Assembly (NCBI RefSeq): GCF_026343955.1
Contig: NZ_JAPKNI010000005.1
Coordinates: forward strand, 248,001-312,000
Length of the DNA stretch: 64,000 nucleotides
Direction of reading: 5' to 3'
Origin: Kaistia defluvii
GTDB taxonomy: Bacteria; Pseudomonadota; Alphaproteobacteria; Rhizobiales; Kaistiaceae
Part shown: positions 3,849 to 62,418 of the stretch, in pieces
Layout of the letters: each line of letters begins with the position of its first letter
Numbering within the stretch: position 1 is the first letter of the stretch
The notes under the pieces: model-generated
What the model saw: the letters and a program-made list of their open reading frames with translations, nothing else
The model's database searches: none
What the model was told of the DNA's origin: nothing
Made by a program: the position numbers and the translations under genes

Positions 3849-5177
3849 ATGACCATCGATATTGCCATCATCAACGGCACCGTGCTGCCGATGGGCGGCG
3901 CCAAGCCGATCGCGAACGGTGTCGTCGCCATCACCGGCAACACCATCGCCGCCGTCGGCCCGGCCGATCAGGTCGATATCCGCGGCGCGCGAAAGGTCGT
4001 CGATGCGTCGCTGTCGGCCGTCATGCCGGGCTTCTGCGACAGCCACACCCACATCGCCTCCAACATGCTGCTGCGTGGACTTCTGGAGGATGTGAAGCTG
4101 TTCGAATGGCTCTCGACCATGTGGCAGCTCAAGCGCAATTTCGACCCCGAGACGCTCTATTGGGCGAGCCTGACCGGCCTCGTCGAAATGGTGAAATCCG
4201 GCATCACCACTTTCAACGAGCACTTCGACGCCTATGCCGTCGAGCCCGAGATCGAGGCGCTGAAGAAGATCCCGCTGCGGGCGACGCTGGGCTATGGCTT
4301 CGCCGATCGCGGCCTCTATGCGCCGATCACCGACTGGTCGTGGAAGACACTCAACAATTTCGGCGATCTGGTCGCCAAGCATCACAAGACCCGCGATGGC
4401 CTGTTGCAGATCGGCCTGTCGCCGCATGCGCCCTATTCCTGCGGCGAGGAGATGTACCGGCTGACGCGCGAAGTGGCCGACGCCTACAGCGTGCCCATCC
4501 ACACCCACCTCGCCGAAGGCACGCAGGAAATGGCCTATATGGCCGAGAATTACGGCACCTCGCCGGTGCGCTGGCTGGAATCGCTCGGCTTCCTCAAGGG
4601 GGACATCACGGCGGCGCATTGCACGCAGCTCGACACCGAAGACATGAAGATCCTGGCGGCGCATGACGTCAAGATCGGCCATTGCCCCTGCTGCAACGCC
4701 AAGCTCAATTCCGGCACCATGCCGCTCAAATGCGTGCTGGAGCACGGCATCACGGTCGGCCTCGCCACCGACGGCCCCGCCAGCCACAACACGCTCGACA
4801 TGTTCCAGGAGATGAAGTTCGCCGGCCTGATCCACAAGGACAAGACCAACGACGTCGAGTTCCTGAAGACCCACGAGATCCTGGAGCTGGCGACGGCGCA
4901 GGGCGCCAAGGCGATGAACCGGCCGGAGACCGGCCAGCTCGTGCCGGGCATGATGGCCGACGTCATCGTCGTCGACCTCGACAAGGCGCATAGCCTGCCC
5001 GTCTATGACACCGCCGCCGCGCTGGTCTATTCGAGCCGTGCCGACGACGTCACGCATACGATCGTCAACGGGCGAATGCTGATGGAAAACCGCATCGTCG
5101 CGGGTATAGACGAGGCGGAAATCCGCCGCGAGTTCCGCACCCGCGCCCATGCGCTGCGCCAGCGCAGCCTCGGCTGA
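3849..5177 (+). CDS. Amidohydrolase, MTA/SAH- or purine-deaminase-like
   Basis: A 442-residue metal-dependent amidohydrolase. Visible ligands are the HxH pair in PGFCDSHTHIASN, the histidine in HTHLAEGTQE, the histidine in AAHCTQLD and the aspartate in GLATDGPASHNT. This is the layout of the S-adenosylhomocysteine/methylthioadenosine deaminase, AtzA/TrzN and 8-oxoguanine deaminase family. ATG 3849 was chosen over an upstream TTG (3813) because of GAGG at 3834-3837 and because the protein then begins directly with the first beta strand. Deamination of an imported purine derivative fits the neighbouring guanine deaminase; the exact substrate is open. Confidence 0.8.
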   Translation: MTIDIAIINGTVLPMGGAKPIANGVVAITGNTIAAVGPADQVDIRGARKVVDASLSAVMPGFCDSHTHIASNMLLRGLLEDVKLFEWLSTMWQLKRNFDPETLYWASLTGLVEMVKSGITTFNEHFDAYAVEPEIEALKKIPLRATLGYGFADRGLYAPITDWSWKTLNNFGDLVAKHHKTRDGLLQIGLSPHAPYSCGEEMYRLTREVADAYSVPIHTHLAEGTQEMAYMAENYGTSPVRWLESLGFLKGDITAAHCTQLDTEDMKILAAHDVKIGHCPCCNAKLNSGTMPLKCVLEHGITVGLATDGPASHNTLDMFQEMKFAGLIHKDKTNDVEFLKTHEILELATAQGAKAMNRPETGQLVPGMMADVIVVDLDKAHSLPVYDTAAALVYSSRADDVTHTIVNGRMLMENRIVAGIDEAEIRREFRTRAHALRQRSLG

Positions 5178-5206
5178 GCCCGACGACCTACGACAGGATC
5201 CGACCC

Positions 5207-6574
5207 GTGACCGATCTCCGCCACAAAACGATCGCCGGCACCTTCTGCCATGCGCCGATATTGGGCGAGATCGAGATCCTGAGGGATGCGCTGGTCGAGA
5301 TCGACGGCGAGGGCCGGATCGCCAAGGTGGTCGCCGCCGGCAGCGCCGCCCATGCCGAGGCACGCACGGCGGCGGAGGCGGCGGGAACGCTCATCGTCGC
5401 GCCGCCGCGCAGCTACATCCTGCCCGGATTCGTCGATCTGCACATCCACGCGCCGCAATACCCGCAGCTCGGCAAGGCGCTCGACGTGCCGCTCGAAGTC
5501 TGGCTACAGCAGCACACCTTCCCGCTCGAGGCGCGCTATGCCGACCTCGCCTTCGCCCGGCGACACTATTCCGCGCTGGTCGGGGACCTGATCGCCAATG
5601 GCACGACGACGGCGCTCTATTTCGCCACCCAGCACGTCGAGGCCTCGAAGGCGCTGGTCGACATCTGCCTCGAAAAGGGCCAGCGCGCTTTGGTCGGCAA
5701 GGTGGCGATGGATAATCCCGACGAATGCCCCGACTATTATCGCGATAGCTCGGCCGAGGAAGGCATCGCCGGCACGAAGTCGCTGATCGACTATGTGGCC
5801 GCGCACCCGGAAAACCACGGCCTCGTTCATCCGGTCATCACGCCGCGCTTCGTGCCCTCCTGCACCGATCCGCTGCTGGAAGGGCTCGGCGAACTGGCGC
5901 GCGAATGCGGCTGCCATGTCCAGACCCACTGCTCGGAGAGCGACTGGGCGCATGGCTATGTGCTCGACCGCTTCGGCCGCACCGACGCCGAGACGCTCGA
6001 CCGCTTCGGGCTGATGACGCGCCGGACCGTGCTGGCGCATTCGAACTTCCTGACCGAGGGCGACATGGACCTGATCCACGCGCGGGGCGCCGGCGTCGCG
6101 CATTGCCCGCTCTCCAACGCCTATTTCGCCAATTCGGTGTTCCCGCTGCGTGCAGCCCTGGCGAAAGGCGTGCGCGTCGGTCTCGGCACCGACATTTCCG
6201 GCGGCCCCACCGCCTCGATGATCGAGGCGCAGCGCATGGCCATCGCCGCCTCCCACATGCTCGAGACCGGCGTCGATCCCGCGCTGCCGCAAGGCACGCG
6301 CGGCCGCCCCGGCTCGCGCATCGATTTCGACATCGCGTTCCACCTGGCGACGGCCGGTGGCGGCGACGCGCTCCACCTTCCCGTCGGCCAGTTCGCGCCC
6401 GGCTACCATTTCGACGCCATCCTCGTCGATCCCGACGCGCCGGGCGGCACGATGCGCGTCTGGGACGATATCGACAGCGACGAGGACGCGCTGCAGAAGA
6501 TCGTCTACACGGCCTCGAAGGCCAATCTCGCCGCCGTCTGGATCGGCGGCCGGGGTGTCGCCGGCGCGCTCTAG
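5207..6574 (+). CDS. guaD: Guanine deaminase
   Basis: This 455-residue amidohydrolase converts guanine to xanthine. It shows the family's distinctive LPGFVDLHIHAPQYPQ near residue 75, the long insert with VWLQQHTFPLEARYAD, the HCSESDWAH stretch, VLAHSNFLTEGDMDL, VAHCPLSNAYFA and GLGTDISGGP. These cover the expected HxH, H, H and D metal ligands. The start is GTG at 5207. It lies 29 bases after the preceding amidohydrolase, in the same orientation as the nucleoside importer, making a purine-scavenging operon. Confidence 0.9.
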   Translation: MTDLRHKTIAGTFCHAPILGEIEILRDALVEIDGEGRIAKVVAAGSAAHAEARTAAEAAGTLIVAPPRSYILPGFVDLHIHAPQYPQLGKALDVPLEVWLQQHTFPLEARYADLAFARRHYSALVGDLIANGTTTALYFATQHVEASKALVDICLEKGQRALVGKVAMDNPDECPDYYRDSSAEEGIAGTKSLIDYVAAHPENHGLVHPVITPRFVPSCTDPLLEGLGELARECGCHVQTHCSESDWAHGYVLDRFGRTDAETLDRFGLMTRRTVLAHSNFLTEGDMDLIHARGAGVAHCPLSNAYFANSVFPLRAALAKGVRVGLGTDISGGPTASMIEAQRMAIAASHMLETGVDPALPQGTRGRPGSRIDFDIAFHLATAGGGDALHLPVGQFAPGYHFDAILVDPDAPGGTMRVWDDIDSDEDALQKIVYTASKANLAAVWIGGRGVAGAL

Positions 6575-50875: not shown

Positions 50876-50876
50876 G

Positions 50877-50898
50877 AGTTGCGGCTTGAGCCGCAACT
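50877..50898. terminator. Hairpin directly after pgm
   Basis: AGTTGCGGCT (50877-50886) and AGCCGCAACT (50889-50898) form a perfect 10-bp inverted repeat immediately after the pgm stop. It marks the boundary with the lower-GC cassette that follows on the opposite strand. Confidence 0.6.
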
Positions 50899-50933
50899 TA
50901 ATGCACTGACCACTATCCAACCGGGCTAGACAA

Positions 50934-53702
50934 CTAGCTTGTCAAACCCAAGCGTTGCCTCGCCCGTCGGCGCAGATTGATAACACTGTGCCGAGCACCA
51001 CTATGCTTGAGATTGAGCCCCATTCGAAACAATTCTGGCACCTCGTAAGGTGGCGAGTCCCCAAAAAGGATAGCGTGGCGCTGCAGGAGCCTGATATCCG
51101 CCTCACTAAGCCCTAGTTTTACTATGGCCTCACTATCAAGCGGAGCAACAACACTATCCGGATATTTTCTGAACTTGTCAAAAACAGGCTTAAGCTCTGC
51201 TATTTCCTCTTGCGTCTCACTAACCTTTGCAACGCTAGTTGGCTTCACCGCATCTTTCAACGCCCTCGGAGCCAGCAATCGCGACGCGGAGAATTCCACG
51301 TCGTTTGCCGAAACCGACGCTGCAGCCGCATTTTCAAGTAACCTGACCAAATCGCGCGCAACCAACCGGCTCTGAAGATCGGAGAGAACCGCGATAACCC
51401 AGTTTGCCGTATAAGCCTCAGCAGTTCTCTTGCTTGGCTTATCATCTGGGCCGAGCTTTCGTCCCCAAAGAGGATAGAGGCGTTCCTCTTTCTCTGCTTG
51501 CGGCATTGACCGAAAAGCTGGCGTCCAAACGTCAAGAGCCCCAGACTTCGTAGCCAACCAAGCCGCCAACTCGATAACGTCGCTGTCGCTCCACGAAAGC
51601 GCGAAAGATTGATATGCTCGCCTAAACTGGTCACTATTCTGCGGTACAGCTGCATCGACGCTATCGCGCCGAGCGAAGATAATTAGACCTATAGGACGCC
51701 CCGGCTCCGCCCTTACACGTTGTGGCAAATCGACAAGAAGGCTCCGCAACCACAGGGGAGTATTGCCAGAAAAAGGATCCTTATAGAGCTCTTCTATTCC
51801 CTCAATCACGACCAGAAGATTCTGCCCACGATCACGAAGTTCCTTGGGGAAACGCTCGCCCGCAGTAGTATTACCCACATCGAAACCAGCTGCCCAAGCT
51901 ATACTATTTAACCAAACTGTGGCGCGTTCCTGCTCGTTCGCCGCCACCGTCAATGCCGAATTGAGATAGCTTTTCGTTTCATAGACGGTCTGCGCCTGTC
52001 CGAAACCGAGCTTTGCGGCAACCGCTTGGCGACAACTATCAATCTCAACTTGATACGCCTCGCTGGACTGGATCGACCCAAGTACCGGCAGGATTGGGGC
52101 GTCCACCGCGTCGCTCGCACCGGAAAGCGCCTCCACAACAGAGACCCAATCACCGCGAGCGGCGACAAAACGCGCCGTCAGCGTCTTGCCGGTTCCCTTT
52201 GCACCTTCAGCTACTATGACTGGGAGTTGGGATTTAAATTGCTCGGCTAACGCGCGTAAGGGGCCCGTAATCAGAGGTGTTTCAATAGGCGCCTCGGCAA
52301 GTTCCGCTGCCACTAGTTTTCCTGCGAAAGTTCGAAGCAGCTTGCAGCGTTCCTGGTGGCTGACATCTAAATTGAGAGTCGGTAAATTTGGCGCGGTAGA
52401 GGCTGCGCCCATGTCGTCAAGCGTCCGGGTCAGCCAATCGCCAAAATCACCCGTAATCCTCTTTTGAAAACCTGACGACCGCAATTGCTCGACAAAACCG
52501 TCCCATCCAGCGGAGGATACTTGCAAATCAGATATTTCAGGCATTCTGACAACCGAGATTGCGCTGATGTCTTGCTCGACCGAGAAAATTGCTTCATCAG
52601 CACCAGTTGCAGCATCTCTGCCTCGAAGCAGTTCCACCGTAACTCTATCCAGTACCGGCCTAAGGATGCTCTCATCGGCCCCAGTCTCACGGATGATCGA
52701 CGGAATTCGGTTAACTAGGAGCAGCGGCTCCGGTAAAATCGTATTCCGCCTACGGGCCTCTCTCGAGAGATACGCGATCAGAGCGGCTGTGCCGTCTAGC
52801 GATTGGCCCGCCAAAGTACAAACGAACATCCGCCCAACACTGGGATCGAGTATTAGCTGGGCTGCTAGGGGCACCAAGCCAGCACGTATGTCTACCACTA
52901 TGCCTGCGCAGTCAGTTCGGTCGGCAATTGCTCGCAGCAGTTCAGCCAAAGCAAATGGACGTTCAGGCGTCGAAAGATGTTCAGCTCGAATAGATGAGCT
53001 TGCTAATTCTTCGAGATTCCTCCTGAGGGGTAATACGAAGATGTCGTCAATTCTCTGGTCTCGCAACCGCCCGGCAGCGAAGTCAATCGTGTCTTCCCAA
53101 GCTGGGCTAGCATCACGATGAGCGAGTGCTACTATATCCTCGAACGCAATTTTTGCGTGCCCACGGGATCGCTGAAAAAGATAACTTAGTCCCGGGGCCT
53201 CCAAATCGGCATCGACGATCAGAACCGGCTTGCGAGCACGCCGCGCCCACTCAATCGCGCACGCAATTGCCGCGGTAGTACGGCCACTGCCACCCTTGAC
53301 GCTGTGACAGGCGATAATCGGGAGGCCGCCGTTAGAAACTAACGGCTCGGGTCTAAAATTGACCGAGCTCTCTATGGCACCGATCGGCATCAACTGTGCG
53401 ATAGGCGCTTGTCGTAACTCTAGTTCTATCGGTAGCCTTTCGGCTTTAGGACCCTCCAGTATTAGGGAGGCTTCGGCATCCGAACGCTCAATTCGTTGAG
53501 GAAAGACCTTCTCAAGCCAATCGTGGAACGCCGCCTCAGGAATTGCGTCGCCATCAAACTCGAACGTAGCTGCCGACCAATCGATGTCAGCTCTGATTAA
53601 CTCTTTGGGACGGCCTAACCAGAGATCGGACGTAGGCTCGATCTGCCCCAATGCGCGAGCAACATCCATCCAGGTGACGGGCGGATCAATCTCGATAGTC
53701 AT
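50934..53702 (-). CDS. Fused MinD/ParA-type (KGGxGR) and P-loop NTPase, putative conflict-system ATPase
   Basis: A 922-residue two-NTPase protein. After about 125 residues of unknown fold comes a deviant Walker A, CHSVKGGSGRTTAA (K136..R141), then VLIVDADLEAPGLS (162-173) and VDIRAGL, the MinD/ParA switch elements. The P-loop lysine is replaced by arginine, a variant I know from KGGVGRT proteins of bacterial conflict systems. From residue 490 a second, canonical P-loop (AEGAKGTGKTLTA, 498-510) and Walker B NLLVVIEGIEEL (628-639) form an AAA/STAND-like domain. A helical C-terminal part follows. The base composition is lower in GC than all neighbours. It follows the HEPN-like gene by 17 bases. 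Function is not established. Confidence 0.75.
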   Translation of the reverse strand: MTIEIDPPVTWMDVARALGQIEPTSDLWLGRPKELIRADIDWSAATFEFDGDAIPEAAFHDWLEKVFPQRIERSDAEASLILEGPKAERLPIELELRQAPIAQLMPIGAIESSVNFRPEPLVSNGGLPIIACHSVKGGSGRTTAAIACAIEWARRARKPVLIVDADLEAPGLSYLFQRSRGHAKIAFEDIVALAHRDASPAWEDTIDFAAGRLRDQRIDDIFVLPLRRNLEELASSSIRAEHLSTPERPFALAELLRAIADRTDCAGIVVDIRAGLVPLAAQLILDPSVGRMFVCTLAGQSLDGTAALIAYLSREARRRNTILPEPLLLVNRIPSIIRETGADESILRPVLDRVTVELLRGRDAATGADEAIFSVEQDISAISVVRMPEISDLQVSSAGWDGFVEQLRSSGFQKRITGDFGDWLTRTLDDMGAASTAPNLPTLNLDVSHQERCKLLRTFAGKLVAAELAEAPIETPLITGPLRALAEQFKSQLPVIVAEGAKGTGKTLTARFVAARGDWVSVVEALSGASDAVDAPILPVLGSIQSSEAYQVEIDSCRQAVAAKLGFGQAQTVYETKSYLNSALTVAANEQERATVWLNSIAWAAGFDVGNTTAGERFPKELRDRGQNLLVVIEGIEELYKDPFSGNTPLWLRSLLVDLPQRVRAEPGRPIGLIIFARRDSVDAAVPQNSDQFRRAYQSFALSWSDSDVIELAAWLATKSGALDVWTPAFRSMPQAEKEERLYPLWGRKLGPDDKPSKRTAEAYTANWVIAVLSDLQSRLVARDLVRLLENAAAASVSANDVEFSASRLLAPRALKDAVKPTSVAKVSETQEEIAELKPVFDKFRKYPDSVVAPLDSEAIVKLGLSEADIRLLQRHAILFGDSPPYEVPELFRMGLNLKHSGARHSVINLRRRARQRLGLTS

Positions 53703-53719
53703 TATCAGATCATCCAATC

Positions 53720-54136
53720 TCAAAGATGCTTCTCAGTATAAGCCAGAATTTTACGGAGCCAAGACACAACATCATCCTGACCGTCTAGCTTTTCTCCATA
53801 TCTCCAAGCCTCGTGAAGCTCAGATACATGAATATGATCACCGCTTCGAAGCTTAATCGCAGCGGGTCGCAAAGGGCAGTCTTCTGCACTAACGCGAAGG
53901 GCTGATAGAATGCTATCCAGCCTATGCAGGTGGGCCCGTGCCGAACTACCCGCTGCTGTATTAGATTCGGAAGTCGTATTTAGCGAAAACTTGGCTAAAT
54001 ACAACGCCTTCAAACTGCACTCTGCGGCATAAAAAAGAAGCAATGCGGCAGCGTCAGCATCAGACGTTTCCGATGACGCCAGCTTCAACTCATTCGCTCG
54101 CCGCTTGAGAGTTCTGCGGTTCGGATCAATTGGCAT
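53720..54136 (-). CDS. Small HEPN-like protein, partner of the KGGxGR NTPase
   Basis: A 138-residue helical protein. The stretch AALLLFYAAECSLKALYLAK (residues 30-49) looks like the core helix of HEPN domains, whose members are often toxin RNases. A candidate R-x5-H motif is at R97-H103 (RSGDHIH), followed by LHEAWRYGEKLDG. The match is by eye and the HEPN assignment is tentative. ATG 54136 is preferred over an upstream TTG. It is the first gene of the cassette and is co-directional with the NTPase. Low GC supports acquisition together. Confidence 0.55.
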   Translation of the reverse strand: MPIDPNRRTLKRRANELKLASSETSDADAAALLLFYAAECSLKALYLAKFSLNTTSESNTAAGSSARAHLHRLDSILSALRVSAEDCPLRPAAIKLRSGDHIHVSELHEAWRYGEKLDGQDDVVSWLRKILAYTEKHL

Positions 54137-54226
54137 CAAACGGTTCCGTACCAAAATGTAACTATACAGATAGACCTGTCGAACCGCATTTGATTCGAAT
54201 CATCGCCATGCCAAGGGCACCCACTC

Positions 54227-54742
54227 CTACTCCATAAACACCGGCGTGCCGTCCGGCTCCGCCTTCAGCTTGGCGGCGGCGGCGCAGAAGTCTTGCTTGT
54301 CGCCATGGGCCTCGGCGATGAAAAGGCCGTAGCGGGCGCCGAAGGCGACGAGGATGGCGGTCTTGCGTTCCTCGGCCTGCTCGTCGGTCAGTTCCTTGTC
54401 GCCGCTGGCAATCACATCGCCGATCGCCTTGCCAAACGTTTCCCTGGCGAGGCCGTGGCCGTCGCAGACGCGGACCGCCGCCGCCTGGAAGGCGAGGTTG
54501 TTCAGCGCCGCGAACTGGGCGTCGGCGAGGATGGCGCCTTCCGTCTCCAGGAAATCGGCCCAGGACGCGTCGGCGCGGTCATTGTCGGCACCGGGCGCCG
54601 GCGCGGTGGCGCCGGCCGGCGGCGCCGGCGCGATGTTTCCCGTCTGCGCGAAGGCAGGGGCGGCGGCGAAAAGGACGGCGAGCGCGGTGGCGGCGAGGGC
54701 TGCGCGGATCGCGCGGGCTGGCCGGAAGCTATGTGCGAGCAT
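54227..54742 (-). CDS. Exported protein of unknown function
   Basis: A 171-residue protein with a long signal peptide (ATALAVLFAAAPAFAQTG, cleavage near residue 34) and a Pro/Ala linker, then a helical domain with two cysteines (VCDGHGLARETFGKAIGDV and KQDFCAAAAKLKAEP) likely to form a disulfide. GAGGGG precedes ATG 54742. I do not recognise a family. It lies 10 bases downstream of another small exported protein, so the two probably form an operon. Confidence 0.75.
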   Translation of the reverse strand: MLAHSFRPARAIRAALAATALAVLFAAAPAFAQTGNIAPAPPAGATAPAPGADNDRADASWADFLETEGAILADAQFAALNNLAFQAAAVRVCDGHGLARETFGKAIGDVIASGDKELTDEQAEERKTAILVAFGARYGLFIAEAHGDKQDFCAAAAKLKAEPDGTPVFME

Positions 54743-54752
54743 GGTGTTCCCC

Positions 54753-55079
54753 TCAGCGGCCATAAACGCGCCAGGTCCAGTTGCCACTATAGGCGCCGCC
54801 ATTGTTGTAGCAGGCGCGCTGTTCGGGATAGCAGATGATGCCGCCGGCGGGCGAGAACGGCGCCGGCGGGCGATAGGAAGGCGGCGGCGGCGCGCCATAG
54901 ATGTCGTTGTTGCGGTTGGCGCTGTCGGCGATGGCAGCCCCCACGGCGAGGCCGGCAAGGCCGCCGATGATGGCGGCGGCGTTCTTGCCATCCTTCGCCT
55001 GGCCGGGCTGGCCGGCCGCGACCAGCAAGGCCGGCGCCAGCACCGCGACGACGGCCAGTCTTCGAATCATTGTCTGCAT
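54753..55079 (-). CDS. Small exported protein with glycine-zipper-like segment
   Basis: This 108-residue protein has a signal peptide (LAVVAVLAPALLVAAGQPGQ), a glycine-rich hydrophobic stretch AAAIIGGLAGLAVGAAIADS of the glycine-zipper type, a proline-rich loop PPPPSYRPPAPF and a C-terminal domain with two cysteines (IICYPEQRACYNNGG). Such proteins are usually envelope-associated. AGAGGG precedes ATG 55079. No specific function can be assigned. Confidence 0.7.
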   Translation of the reverse strand: MQTMIRRLAVVAVLAPALLVAAGQPGQAKDGKNAAAIIGGLAGLAVGAAIADSANRNNDIYGAPPPPSYRPPAPFSPAGGIICYPEQRACYNNGGAYSGNWTWRVYGR

Positions 55080-59617: not shown

Positions 59618-60088
59618 CTACCGGACCTCGCTCTTCCAGCTCAGGAAGAAGCCGACATCACCGGGCATGCCGTTTGGAAAATTGATGATCATGGCGCTGA
59701 GCCGGAAACCCTGCGGCTTGGCGTATTGGAGATAGCGGTCATAGAACTGCCGGGCCTTGCCCTGCAGCGTCTCGGGCCAGTCCGGATCGGCGCTGTTGAT
59801 CGCCCGGCCGCTATCGGTGCAGAGCACGGAGGGGAAGGTGTAGACCATCGCCTCGTACTTGCCGTTCTTGACCGCGTTCATCGCCACCCGGCGCACGCTG
59901 GCGATCTCCTCGTCGCTGACCTGGTCGCGCAGGAAGCTTTCGGTGAACTGGTTGAGCGCCTCGTTCTGCGACGACCGATGCGCCTGTTCCTTGGCGACCT
60001 CCTTCATCCGCTCTTCGAGAATGGCCTTCCGCAACGACTCGGCACTCGGCGGCGGCGCATTGACATCGACGTCCTTGATTTCGGCCAT
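59618..60088 (-). CDS. Conserved hypothetical protein
   Basis: A 156-residue cytoplasmic protein that I do not recognise. It is helical at the N-terminus (LRKAILEERMKEVAKEQAHR) and mixed at the C-terminus (AMVYTFPSVLCTDSGRAINS, RLSAMIINFPNGMPGDVGFF, LSWKSEVR). No signal peptide or metal motif is visible. A GGAGGAA site precedes ATG 60088. It is monocistronic. Confidence 0.75.
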   Translation of the reverse strand: MAEIKDVDVNAPPPSAESLRKAILEERMKEVAKEQAHRSSQNEALNQFTESFLRDQVSDEEIASVRRVAMNAVKNGKYEAMVYTFPSVLCTDSGRAINSADPDWPETLQGKARQFYDRYLQYAKPQGFRLSAMIINFPNGMPGDVGFFLSWKSEVR

Positions 60089-60519
60089 GTCTTCCTCCTG
60101 AAAAATTTGCCGGCGAAAGAAGTGCGCGGGTGCGTTTGGCTAGCCCTTGTCCGCGCCCTCTGGCAGGCCGTCGCAGGGATCGAAACGGCAACGGAAATGC
60201 CGCTGGAAAGCGCGCTGCGGCATCGTTCCTGTCCTACGCTCCCATTATACGACGCCACCTTCCGCATGGGAAGGATTCAGCGGGAGAGAGCGGCGCTCGA
60301 CGGATGCCCGATTTCACGACGCATTGGGACCGAAGACCAGCTTTGGAGGCGATTTTAGTAAGGTGCGTCTCCGACGAGGAAAGCGAGGCAGCCACATTGC
60401 TTTGCAGTCGAGCGGCAGATACCGACCCCATTTCGGTAATTCAGAGCTAATGCGTGAATTCCTGAAAGCTGCCTTGCGCCGCCTCGTTGAGATGCCAGCT
60501 ATACGCGCGTTAGTGCAGA
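60089..60519. other. Intergenic region before the RES module
   Basis: About 430 bases without a supported gene. The left part has normal high GC; from about 60340 the composition falls towards that of the RES module, so the edge of that insertion probably lies here. No integrase, tRNA or direct repeat was seen. Confidence 0.45.
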
Positions 60520-61293
60520 TCAGCCGGGTTGCTGCTCGATTTTGTGTGTAATGTCTTTCACTTGAAACAGCCGACACCACCCGACTTCGAAATCATCGAT
60601 ATTGAAAATCGCGACATTGTAGCCGTCCTCGCCGAACGCGCTTTTGTACGCTACCCCGTCGTAACCAAGGGAGCGGAACAATTCCGCAAGGATCTGTGTG
60701 GGAGCGTACTCCGCTGCGTCGTCGGACCTATCTGCCGGCGCTGAAAATGCTCGGTCGATATCCGACCAAACGGCTTTCTCCATCTTCTCGCGTTCTGGCT
60801 CTTTGAAGTATAAAAAGTGCTTTTTGGCGAGAACGCTGCAGTCGATCAGTTTCAGTTCGCGCAAGCATTTCATACCGGCGACGGTCACGTAGGCGCCGAT
60901 GGCAGGCCTGACTTCCGATACCGCCGTAACGTCGTTTGTCGCCATATAGAGACACGGTATTCCGCGGGGATTCACGCGTCCGTCGCCGGCCCGGTCACGC
61001 AACGGGATCATGCGGGCCCTGTTGGCCGCGCACTCGATATCGTCGATGTAGATTTCTTCACCGTCGTCGCCGGTTTGATAAATCGGTCTCAGGTTGTGTG
61101 CTACTTGGGCTCGCCTCAATCCCGCGCCCACATTAATGATACTCTCCCGAGCATGACACGTGGCACCGACGGCTTGCAGAAATGCTTCCGTCTCCGGAGA
61201 CCGGATGAAACGACGTGACTTCACGACCTCGCGTCGGAAATTATAGTAATCATGGCGCGATTTGAAAGTCGGAGGCAAACTCTCTTCCGTCAC
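60520..61293 (-). CDS. RES-domain protein (putative NAD+-degrading toxin family)
   Basis: A 257-residue protein. The C-terminal part carries the RES-like core: R110 in NPRGIPCLYMATNDVTAVSE followed by VRPAIGAYVTVA, with Y116 and E127 as likely active-site residues, then SLGYDGVAYKSAFGEDGYNV and IFNIDDFEV. About 100 N-terminal residues of unknown fold precede it. RES toxins phosphorolyse NAD+ and are normally paired with an Xre/MbcA-type antitoxin, which is not present; the upstream gene is unrelated. GTG 61293 has GGGGA 8 bases upstream; in-frame TTG codons further upstream are alternatives. GC is lower than in neighbouring genes. Confidence 0.7.
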   Translation of the reverse strand: MTEESLPPTFKSRHDYYNFRREVVKSRRFIRSPETEAFLQAVGATCHARESIINVGAGLRRAQVAHNLRPIYQTGDDGEEIYIDDIECAANRARMIPLRDRAGDGRVNPRGIPCLYMATNDVTAVSEVRPAIGAYVTVAGMKCLRELKLIDCSVLAKKHFLYFKEPEREKMEKAVWSDIDRAFSAPADRSDDAAEYAPTQILAELFRSLGYDGVAYKSAFGEDGYNVAIFNIDDFEVGWCRLFQVKDITHKIEQQPG

Positions 61294-61344
61294 GAATTTA
61301 GTCCCCAAAATCGACAATCATTCGGTCACTGCGACACGCACTTG

Positions 61345-62106
61345 TCAAAGCCGGATTTCGCCATCGTCTGTGAAGACACAATGGACCGCCCCATACACCA
61401 ATTCAAATGGTCCGCTATCGCCAAAGGCCTTCGCTGCGACGGCGACGGCCATCATTGCACGATGCACATACAGGACGTACTGCCTCATCATGTCAGATAG
61501 CCGCCGATCTGTGGTTTGAAGTGGCAGTACGAACTTGTGACCATCGTATACATCCATGATGTGCACCGCCGCACCGTGCACATAACCGGAGAACGTGGCG
61601 TCAATGGTCTCAGTTACCGCTACGACTTGGCTTACCGGCAATCCCGCATTGTAAGTGCGGGCCACATAGGCTCTGATGTCGCGGCGGGAGACACGATTTC
61701 GCCTCTGCGTCGCCTGAAGAGGATCCGGGTGATCAAATTCCTCCTGAAAGAATTCGGCAAGATACTGGTCGTGACGCGGTTCGCGCGGGTGCTGAAATAC
61801 GAGCGGCCCCGCAATGAACATGATGTCAGAGTCGAGCTCGTCCATGGCTCTCATAGTTGCGCCAGCATCTAGAACTAAGCCGTTTTGCAGCAACACCCAG
61901 CCAGCTCTCAACGCGCTCGACAATCGAACCGACTTTAGAACTAGAGCCTGACGCGCCTGATGCTCGACATACCGATGGGCACGATCATCTCCATGGAGAT
62001 GCGTCCATGCTGGCTGGGGCACCAGATTCTCCATGCGCGCAACAGCTTGATCAATAGTTTGCACGGCTGTTGTGAATGCCGCTTCTTCTTTAGTCGAGAA
62101 AGGCAT
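61345..62106 (-). CDS. Unknown protein upstream of the RES gene
   Basis: I do not recognise this 253-residue protein. It is predicted helical, rich in aromatic and charged residues, with LSSALRAGWVLLQNGLVLDA near residue 65, LDSDIMFIAGPLVF, RRNRVSRRDIRAYVARTYN and a second helical part HGAAVHIMDVYDG..RRLSDMMRQYVLYVHRAMM. No signal or clear membrane helix is seen. TGAGG precedes ATG 62106. It ends 51 bases before the RES start and is probably co-transcribed with it, as an antitoxin, cofactor or sensor. Confidence 0.7.
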   Translation of the reverse strand: MPFSTKEEAAFTTAVQTIDQAVARMENLVPQPAWTHLHGDDRAHRYVEHQARQALVLKSVRLSSALRAGWVLLQNGLVLDAGATMRAMDELDSDIMFIAGPLVFQHPREPRHDQYLAEFFQEEFDHPDPLQATQRRNRVSRRDIRAYVARTYNAGLPVSQVVAVTETIDATFSGYVHGAAVHIMDVYDGHKFVLPLQTTDRRLSDMMRQYVLYVHRAMMAVAVAAKAFGDSGPFELVYGAVHCVFTDDGEIRL

Positions 62107-62418
62107 GGAACCTCAATGGGGGTCGAATTTCAGGACGCTAACAGGTGCTTCCGCAATCTAGATGTCTGATGTCCACACTGTCTTGCCCAAAAGCAGACCG
62201 TCAGCAAACCACCCCTACTCGCCATTCTGGCTCAGAGCGCCACCGGCAACCGTTGAGGAAAAGTGCAATTGGCGAAGACTGCCGGAAATGGAGCGCCAAG
62301 CCAGGGGACAGGGCCCAAGCTCCTCGCTTCCCCCAAAAATTCAAAAGCAAGGGCCGGAGTGCGCGCGGTATCTCCGGGGCCTACCTAGTGGGCATGATCC
62401 ATGCGAAGGATGATGCCC
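62107..62418. promoter_or_regulatory. Divergent promoter region between the RES module and ada
   Basis: About 310 bases separate the divergent genes. The left part has lower GC like the RES module, the right part normal GC. It must hold promoters for both directions; no operator could be recognised, although Ada proteins usually bind just upstream of their own gene. Confidence 0.4.

Follow-up and report, generated by a model that had tools for sequence, protein, structure and literature searches.

Gene pair and its location

We analysed a pair of neighbouring genes in a 64,000-nucleotide stretch of the Kaistia defluvii genome (contig NZ_JAPKNI010000005.1, positions 248,001 to 312,000 of the forward strand), which as a whole is called the window in the following and in whose numbering positions are given. 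On the minus strand, an intact open reading frame (ORF) for a small protein of 138 amino acids (aa) is followed after 17 bases by an equally intact ORF for a large protein of 922 aa, just as a first-pass annotation of this DNA had described. This two-gene module, in the following the cassette, is real, conserved and mobile, and it is very likely a defence or conflict system. The locus is composed as follows:

53720–54136, minus strand: small gene (A) with ATG start and intact ORF, encoding a 138-aa protein with predicted HEPN fold, the likely effector
50934–53702, minus strand: large gene (BC), 922 aa, comprising an N-terminal alpha/beta part, a MinD/ParA domain, a second P-loop nucleoside triphosphatase (NTPase) and a mostly helical C-terminal part
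50876–54226, no strand: variable interval of low G+C content between the convergent conserved genes pgm and 54227–54991, holding other cargo in close congeners

The cassette is flanked by two convergent genes, whose stop codons face it. The left neighbour we take from its sequence to be pgm (phosphoglucomutase); the gene to the right (54227–54991) carries no name. Over the three 1-kb bins from 51001 to 54000 the G+C content is 53–55%, and it is 65–66% in the flanking bins.

Conservation and distribution of the pair

Relatives were obtained from a scan of genome contigs with an alignment of nine relatives, using patterns from MinD-type motifs. We considered the best 80 of at least 377 confirmed relatives (at least 593 stretches), at whose loci (given by L numbers below) genes were called mechanically as longest ORFs. 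The large protein has full-length relatives from about eight phyla, and in 77 of the best 80 the large gene is preceded on its own strand by a HEPN gene, such that the cassette is more than a chance arrangement. In 72 loci the HEPN ORF overlaps the called large ORF or ends at most 60 bases from it. At L090, L117, L122, L142 and L146 the large ORF was uncalled or partial, and the HEPN ORF was found just upstream of the tblastn match. With this gene calling a HEPN gene was undetected in only three of the 80 loci (L150, L154 and L158), so that the proposed pairing, against which the first-pass annotation would have counted large genes occurring alone and only in housekeeping contexts, was not refuted. 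The contig of L150 starts near the gene and contains, judged by eye, a fragment resembling the last part of the HEPN gene; the L158 genome has HEPN-profile matches on other contigs. The evolutionary distances of the HEPN proteins closely followed those of the large proteins (Mantel r of 0.96 for 68 pairs), and none of 999 permutations reached such a value, the highest being 0.09.

A midpoint-rooted tree of the MinD-type domain, to which a long-branch warning applies, was built from 89 rows, after leaving out four of 97 rows without usable domain and four duplicates, among them a fused copy from Magnetococcales (L153, identical to L066). It has two sides that are joined by a branch of 1.8 changes per column. 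On the window side there are 51 rows, 49 of them fused and two cut short (L123 and L128, called split, run to the contig edge), from Pseudomonadota, Actinomycetota, Bacillota, Acidobacteriota, Aminicenantes, Thermodesulfobacteriota and some Cyanobacteriota. The 38 rows of the other side (19 fused and 19 split or short) include the operons of PDC-M28, a candidate system from PADLOC-DB discussed below, as well as copies from Cyanobacteriota, Chloroflexota, Bacillota and Actinomycetota. The window copy clusters with those from Azospirillum, another alphaproteobacterium, Rhizobium, Xanthobacter, Burkholderia and Paraburkholderia (100/100). Since this group spans two classes, the tree points to horizontal transfer of the cassette.

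The distribution is patchy: within the class, a match at 1e-60 was obtained in one of 385 genomes, the window's own, with at most two candidates scored per genome. A search with the single large-protein sequence gave matches in 22 of the 385 genomes including the window's own, the others falling within the MinD-type domain or close to it. Queried directly, the large protein further returned one plasmid record and one phage record; no viral contig with the large protein and no plasmid with the small protein were found in these direct searches.

The small protein

An AlphaFold2 model of the small protein, based on an alignment with 58 relatives, reached a predicted local distance difference test (pLDDT) score of 95.3 and a predicted template modelling (pTM) score of 0.89. 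For fold comparison 334 PDB chains were re-aligned to the model with VIA-align. The best match was TT1696 with a Z of 10.9 over 108 residues, next to ST0689, the HEPN domain of sacsin (Z 10.0), AF0298, TM0613 and Csm6, with HEPN-MNT toxins further below. All 23 listed PDB entries with a Z of at least 6.2 are HEPN-type or nucleotidyltransferase-linked, three of them (TT1696, 7bxo and 5yep) presumably so. For the remaining entries the label follows from the title or from a review of HEPN proteins (PMC3710099). Behind these 23 entries the ranking continues with AbiV (Z 5.1–5.3) and the first unrelated helical proteins (about 5).

At the sequence level, 14 of 59 family members matched the Pfam HEPN family PF05168 at an E-value of at most 0.01, and the member from Calothrix scored above the gathering cut-off of the HEPN model; HEPN_AbiV was matched by one of the 59 (E 0.0092). 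The small protein of the window alone matched no Pfam family at 0.01, and a search of PDB sequences with our HEPN profile returned two chance-like matches and no HEPN structure. To seed that profile, small ORFs preceding BC had been picked with a loose motif, such that its E-values are not independent, whereas the Pfam matches are. Because of the VIA-align result, the Pfam matches of the relatives and the conserved residues described next, taken together, we take the small protein as a HEPN protein. The first-pass annotation had called it HEPN-like and had named a structure prediction lacking the HEPN fold as a ground for rejection; with a predicted HEPN fold and some relatives that match PF05168 its claim was supported.

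In the alignment of the 59 small proteins, which includes the window and in which a column was called conserved from 85% on, the following sites were located:

54008–54022, minus strand: codons of residues 39–43 in helix 2, with E39 and K43 invariant (alignment and model)
53924–53926, minus strand: codon of H71, situated between helices 2 and 3 and a candidate for the alternative histidine of HEPN proteins, a role suggested by PMC3710099 (58 of 59)
53798–53803, minus strand: codons of R112-Y113 in the WRYG motif at the end of helix 3, invariant
53828–53848, minus strand: R97-SGDHI-H103 (R-x5-H), not conserved

E39, K43, R112 and Y113 are thus identical in all 59 sequences and H71 in all except one. 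According to the model, E39 lies within the helix 27–49, H71 between the helices 66–69 and 73–79, and R112 ends the helix 104–112. The HEPN review places an acidic residue in helix 2, an alternative histidine between helices 2 and 3 and an arginine at the end of helix 3 (PMC3710099). R112 is conserved without a conserved histidine after it, i.e. the Rx4-6H motif that typifies this helix end in HEPN proteins is not formed. As in the HEPN-T/AbiV subtype, the arginine is kept, the motif histidine is lost, and a second conserved histidine is found N-terminally between helices 2 and 3. The set of E39, H71 and R112-Y113 is therefore predicted to resemble the alternative active site of AbiV/HEPN-T in its layout, and it may be catalytic. 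The R-x5-H motif pointed out in the first-pass annotation finds no support as an active site: its letters exist, but neither R97 nor H103 is among the conserved columns. The annotation had picked out the right object on grounds that were wrong in part.

The large protein

The large protein contains two nucleotide-binding domains with the following elements:

52407–53330, minus strand: MinD/ParA-type domain, residues 125–432 (NF047398 2.5e-36; 50 listed PDB entries with Z 18.5–22.1)
53274–53297, minus strand: KGGSGRTT, residues 136–143, Arg141 replacing the P-loop Lys (49 of 49 aligned sequences)
52182–52205, minus strand: second P-loop GAKGTGKT, residues 500–507 (Lys506 in 49 of 49)
51786–51821, minus strand: Walker B NLLVVIEGIEEL of the second NTPase, residues 628–639 (position 634 D in 43 and E in 6 of 49)

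The protein scored 125.8 bits with the NCBIfam model NF047398 (KGGVGR-motif variant AAA ATPase), above the cut-off of 90, and 33.6 bits with the Sll1717 P-loop family, below the cut-off of 75. Its model (pLDDT 86.1) matches ParA, Soj, MinD and FleN over residues of about 125–432, with BcsQ likewise among the nearest folds of this domain. In an alignment of 49 large proteins, i.e. the window and 48 relatives, G137, G138, R141, D164, D166, E168, D271 and R273 are invariant (DADLEAPG corresponds to residues 164–171) and K136 is lysine in 47; of the second P-loop, G500, G503 and K506 are invariant. With R141 and K506 found throughout this alignment, the whole family shares an arginine in place of the lysine in its first P-loop and has a canonical second one. 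The MinD/ParA domain with arginine at the P-loop lysine position, which had been noticed in the first pass, was supported in this way by the family model, the fold matches and the alignment. Searched against PDB sequences, a profile of the large protein found ParA/MinD chains, and its second NTPase weakly matched ORC/Cdc6- and RFC-type chains. A match of the large protein to BrxC appeared once (9.2e-4 over 587 columns) and was not used as evidence.

Two observations concern the domains of the large protein elsewhere. Another KGGVGR-type protein of 653 aa (L002, 1621–3582) is preceded by an ORF that by eye is of MqsA-like antitoxin type, which suggests that the KGGVGR-type domain serves several conflict modules. 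Furthermore, the Microcystis phage Mic1 (L031, 5013–5633) and four IMG/VR contigs (L214–L217, near 4944–5519) encode a protein of 187–206 aa that corresponds to just the middle part of the second NTPase (residues 554–700 in the alignment). These Mic1-type contigs are 67–69% identical, with L214 and L215 apparently from a single phage. The P-loop of the protein is degenerate and reads GEDVAKKT, GEGVAENT or GADVAEYT. No MinD or HEPN gene was seen among its called neighbours. We consider the fragment a candidate decoy or dominant-negative form, or else a remnant.

Genomic location and defence context

We compared the interval in the window with that of congeners. The pgm end was matched at full strength in 11 of them, four of which also have the right-hand gene in the stretch; there, similarity stops within about a dozen bases of both stop codons. 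It is a swap-site whose cargo varies from congener to congener. One congener holds a KAP NTPase matching PifA (1.8e-93), another a 277-aa protein without match together with a GHKL-type ATPase (MzaB model, 7.5e-6), another a cytosine methylase (MTase_II) with Vsr and an HNH endonuclease, and yet another a 1301-aa Dsr1/SIR2 protein (2e-96). In a fifth (L187), where the right flank lies further along, the cargo is an HD-CE and GHKL-type ATPase protein without PADLOC match. Among the five close congeners (L183–L187, interval after pgm), three had clear PADLOC matches in the cargo.

A further location of defence type was found on a viral contig. One of 22 confirmed viral-contig matches carries the full cassette (L218, 4508–7673) in a P2-like prophage layout. 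Its neighbours encode a head scaffold protein, a terminase and a portal (phrog_68) and, at the opposite end, a gpA-like nicking protein (phrog_91). For P2-like phages an anti-phage hotspot has been described between gpA and gpQ, which in P2 itself holds old and tin (PMC9122126).

Defence genes were also seen next to other copies: mad3/mad8-like genes occur near L085 and L151 (two of ten large neighbours that were scanned singly), and an annotated type III restriction gene lies two genes away from the copy on the Calothrix plasmid. For a broader comparison, 122 ORFs near 22 cassettes (including L158, without HEPN gene) were scanned at 1e-10 and matched 68 PADLOC families, and for 120 ORFs of control stretches, taken from 20 of these 22 genomes, there were matches to 26 families, where one protein can match dozens of PADLOC models and the control contained mad3 and mad2 matches as well. 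The scan took 122 of 126 case and 120 of 163 control ORFs, with four and 43, respectively, dropped by hand.

The window contains a second variable stretch of low G+C content (60444–62209), about 6 kb from the cassette. Similarity with the congeners L183, L185 and L186 breaks at about 60056–60444 and resumes at 62209–62344. Two ORFs on the minus strand, 60520–61317 (RES-domain-like by eye) and 61345–62106, neither with a PDB sequence match, are possibly another toxin or defence pair.

Proposed function

The cassette is, in our estimate, probably a mobile two-gene anti-phage system of the abortive-infection type. In such a system the double NTPase would be a nucleotide-driven sensor and switch and the HEPN protein the effector. 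In uninfected cells the large protein would keep the HEPN protein idle, probably as a complex. The second NTPase would sense an infection or react to it. Upon infection, NTP turnover or a phage ligand at the second NTPase could alter the state of the MinD-like domain, such that the HEPN protein would be released or activated, cut RNA and stop growth before phage release. ParA and MinD proteins form dimers when they bind ATP and come apart once it is hydrolysed; the arginine in place of the P-loop lysine should change or slow this step. The large protein may restrain or activate the small one. Restraint is what was suggested in 2013 for dyads of HEPN and ParA/Soj (PMC3710099).

Several points weigh against this view. 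For helical bundles, a Z below about 13 can reflect a common arrangement according to a warning of the fold tool itself, and a Foldseek search with the small model gave a best E-value of 0.26 and no hit below 0.001. The canonical Rx4-6H motif is absent, with RYx3-5H found in three of 79 proteins (80-locus set and window), so that the HEPN protein may act by binding and not by catalysis. The second NTPase fell into no one clear fold in the structure and profile matches of the full-length large protein; from the SIMIBI plus AAA/STAND architecture expected in the first pass, the MinD/ParA fold and the presence of a second P-loop NTPase were supported. The co-evolution of the two proteins can stem from linkage, not function. 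Regarding the context, six of the 11 pgm congeners show by eye no clear defence-type gene after pgm (one contig ends there), and eight of the ten large neighbours scanned singly matched no defence model. The comparison of neighbours with the control is coarse and only mildly in favour of a defence context.

Gene order is fixed, the gap between the genes is small or missing, and the locations are variable or mobile, all of which would also fit a toxin-antitoxin (TA) module with phage defence as a side effect or absent. Usual antitoxins are, however, far smaller than the 900-aa double NTPase that would be the partner here, and the site beside pgm holds defence-model matches in three of five close congeners with other cargo. 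A TA module was indeed postulated for the dyad of a HEPN protein (MAE_18760) and ParA/Soj (PMC3710099), but the HEPN proteins of the present family match PF05168, with no MAE-type model among the four Pfam families matched by any of the 59, and the prophage copy occupies a hotspot of defence genes (PMC9122126). A TA module is thus unlikely in our view.

The HEPN domain of sacsin is regarded as an adaptor that binds nucleotides or RNA. As it is among the best fold matches, the small protein could be such an adaptor and not an RNase, with the large NTPase as the effector on the membrane, DNA partition or phage assembly. This would agree with the missing canonical motif and with the MinD/ParA domain, which is a known fold for positioning at membranes or on DNA. 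An almost invariant histidine and Arg-Tyr pair over many phyla has, however, no obvious need in a pure scaffold. Moreover, AbiV appears as 'an RNase in a two-component antiphage system' in the title of PDB entry 9bj6, and it, too, is described as having no canonical motif (PMC3710099). We give the adaptor a rather slim chance.

That the cassette is a housekeeping or cell-biological switch (division, secretion, polysaccharide), for which Soj/ParA, MinD, FleN and BcsQ as nearest folds of the middle domain would speak, is highly improbable in view of the single class genome with a 1e-60 match, the swap-site, the low-G+C island, the tree crossing classes and phyla and the prophage copy.

The abortive anti-phage system can be phrased in a more specific, and accordingly more doubtful, manner. 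It could represent a new class in which a HEPN RNase with a non-canonical site (Glu / His / Arg-Tyr) is switched in two nucleotide-dependent steps by the Arg-for-Lys MinD-like domain and the second NTPase, and which Microcystis-type phages would inhibit with their piece of the second NTPase, with its degenerate P-loop, as a decoy. If the phage fragment were an inhibitor, a ready-made test of the sensor function would exist.

HEPN effectors under NTPase sensors recur in bacterial immunity. To our knowledge, none of these systems uses a MinD-like switch in which the P-loop lysine is always arginine. What is new here is a fused, divergent branch beside the already catalogued candidate PDC-M28. 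This branch is a compact two-gene system in named strains of Azospirillum, Burkholderia, Rhizobium and Streptomyces and offers clear residues for mutation. PADLOC's candidate, in turn, gains a wider family, conserved residues and independent evidence from location.

Comparison with known systems

MNT-HEPN toxin-antitoxin pairs (HepT/MntA) share the HEPN fold with the small protein at a Z of about 6–7. We rejected them as an assignment, since the adjacent partner is a double NTPase and not a nucleotidyltransferase. The dyad of MAE_18760 HEPN and ParA/Soj, proposed as toxin and antitoxin by Anantharaman et al. in 2013, is similar in that a HEPN gene lies beside a gene for a ParA-type ATPase (PMC3710099). 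The MAE_18760 family is listed there as keeping Rx4-6H (Table 1), and the partner is described in the passages covered just as ParA/Soj-like. The cassette was not assigned to this TA pair, as it has neither Rx4-6H nor a MAE-type model among its Pfam matches. AbiV from Lactococcus is alike in the HEPN fold, the absence of canonical Rx4-6H and the alternative conserved histidine (PMC3710099). It differs in that no MinD/ATPase partner is mentioned for AbiV in the passages covered, and the sequence link consists of the one family member with an E-value of 0.0092. NF047398, above whose cut-off the large protein of the window scores, is a model of one domain; in the window this KGGVGR domain shares its protein with a second NTPase and has a HEPN gene as partner.

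The closest described relative is PDC-M28, which has the same modules in the same order: HEPN (A), KGGVGR MinD-like (B) and P-loop ATPase (C). Matches of the window proteins to the A, B and C models are weak and partial (0.0017, 2.1e-14 and 7.7e-6); the corresponding genes of the Calothrix plasmid score 5.6e-14, 2e-59 and 1.4e-81. At 1e-15, the PDC-M28B model had matches in 28 of 398 genomes searched within the phylum, from which the 18 strongest places were taken as a sample. Their modules are mostly separate genes in the order A-B-C, with one fused locus (L066). A HEPN gene was present at all 18 loci when using a profile from 11 of them over all frames, and at 16 with the other profile; a first ORF-based pass had found the A gene at 11 loci and missed seven. 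RYx3-5H occurs in two of 11 of these HEPN proteins. In the split operons L067, L070 and L071 the ATPase gene (C) encodes 1691–1790 aa with an extension, and at L072, near a contig end, at least 1328 aa. On the Calothrix plasmid (L030, 8526–10277) two more genes follow C, one with HEAT-like repeats below the cut-off.

No paper was found under the name PDC-M28. PDC systems are termed unpublished candidates (PMC11811056). They are said to have been derived by 'guilt-by-embedding', for which a preprint of Payne and colleagues is cited (PMC12988326). DefensePredictor reports 31 validated systems, four of them with HEPN; MinD and ParA are not named in its main text as covered here, and overlap is possible in the supplements, which lie outside that text (PMC13092281). 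The first-pass annotation knew of no named system with this pair. This has to be corrected, given the split relative in PADLOC-DB and the HEPN and ParA/Soj dyad of 2013 (PMC3710099). PDC-M28 differs from the cassette by its three separate genes, as assumed from the model names, whereas B and C are fused in the window. Fusion alone does not separate the two, since 19 of 38 rows on the PDC-M28 side of the tree are fused too; the window copy is, however, set apart from the split operons by the branch of 1.8 changes per column. Judged from sequence, the window cassette is a fused, divergent relative of PDC-M28 and not a clear member of it.

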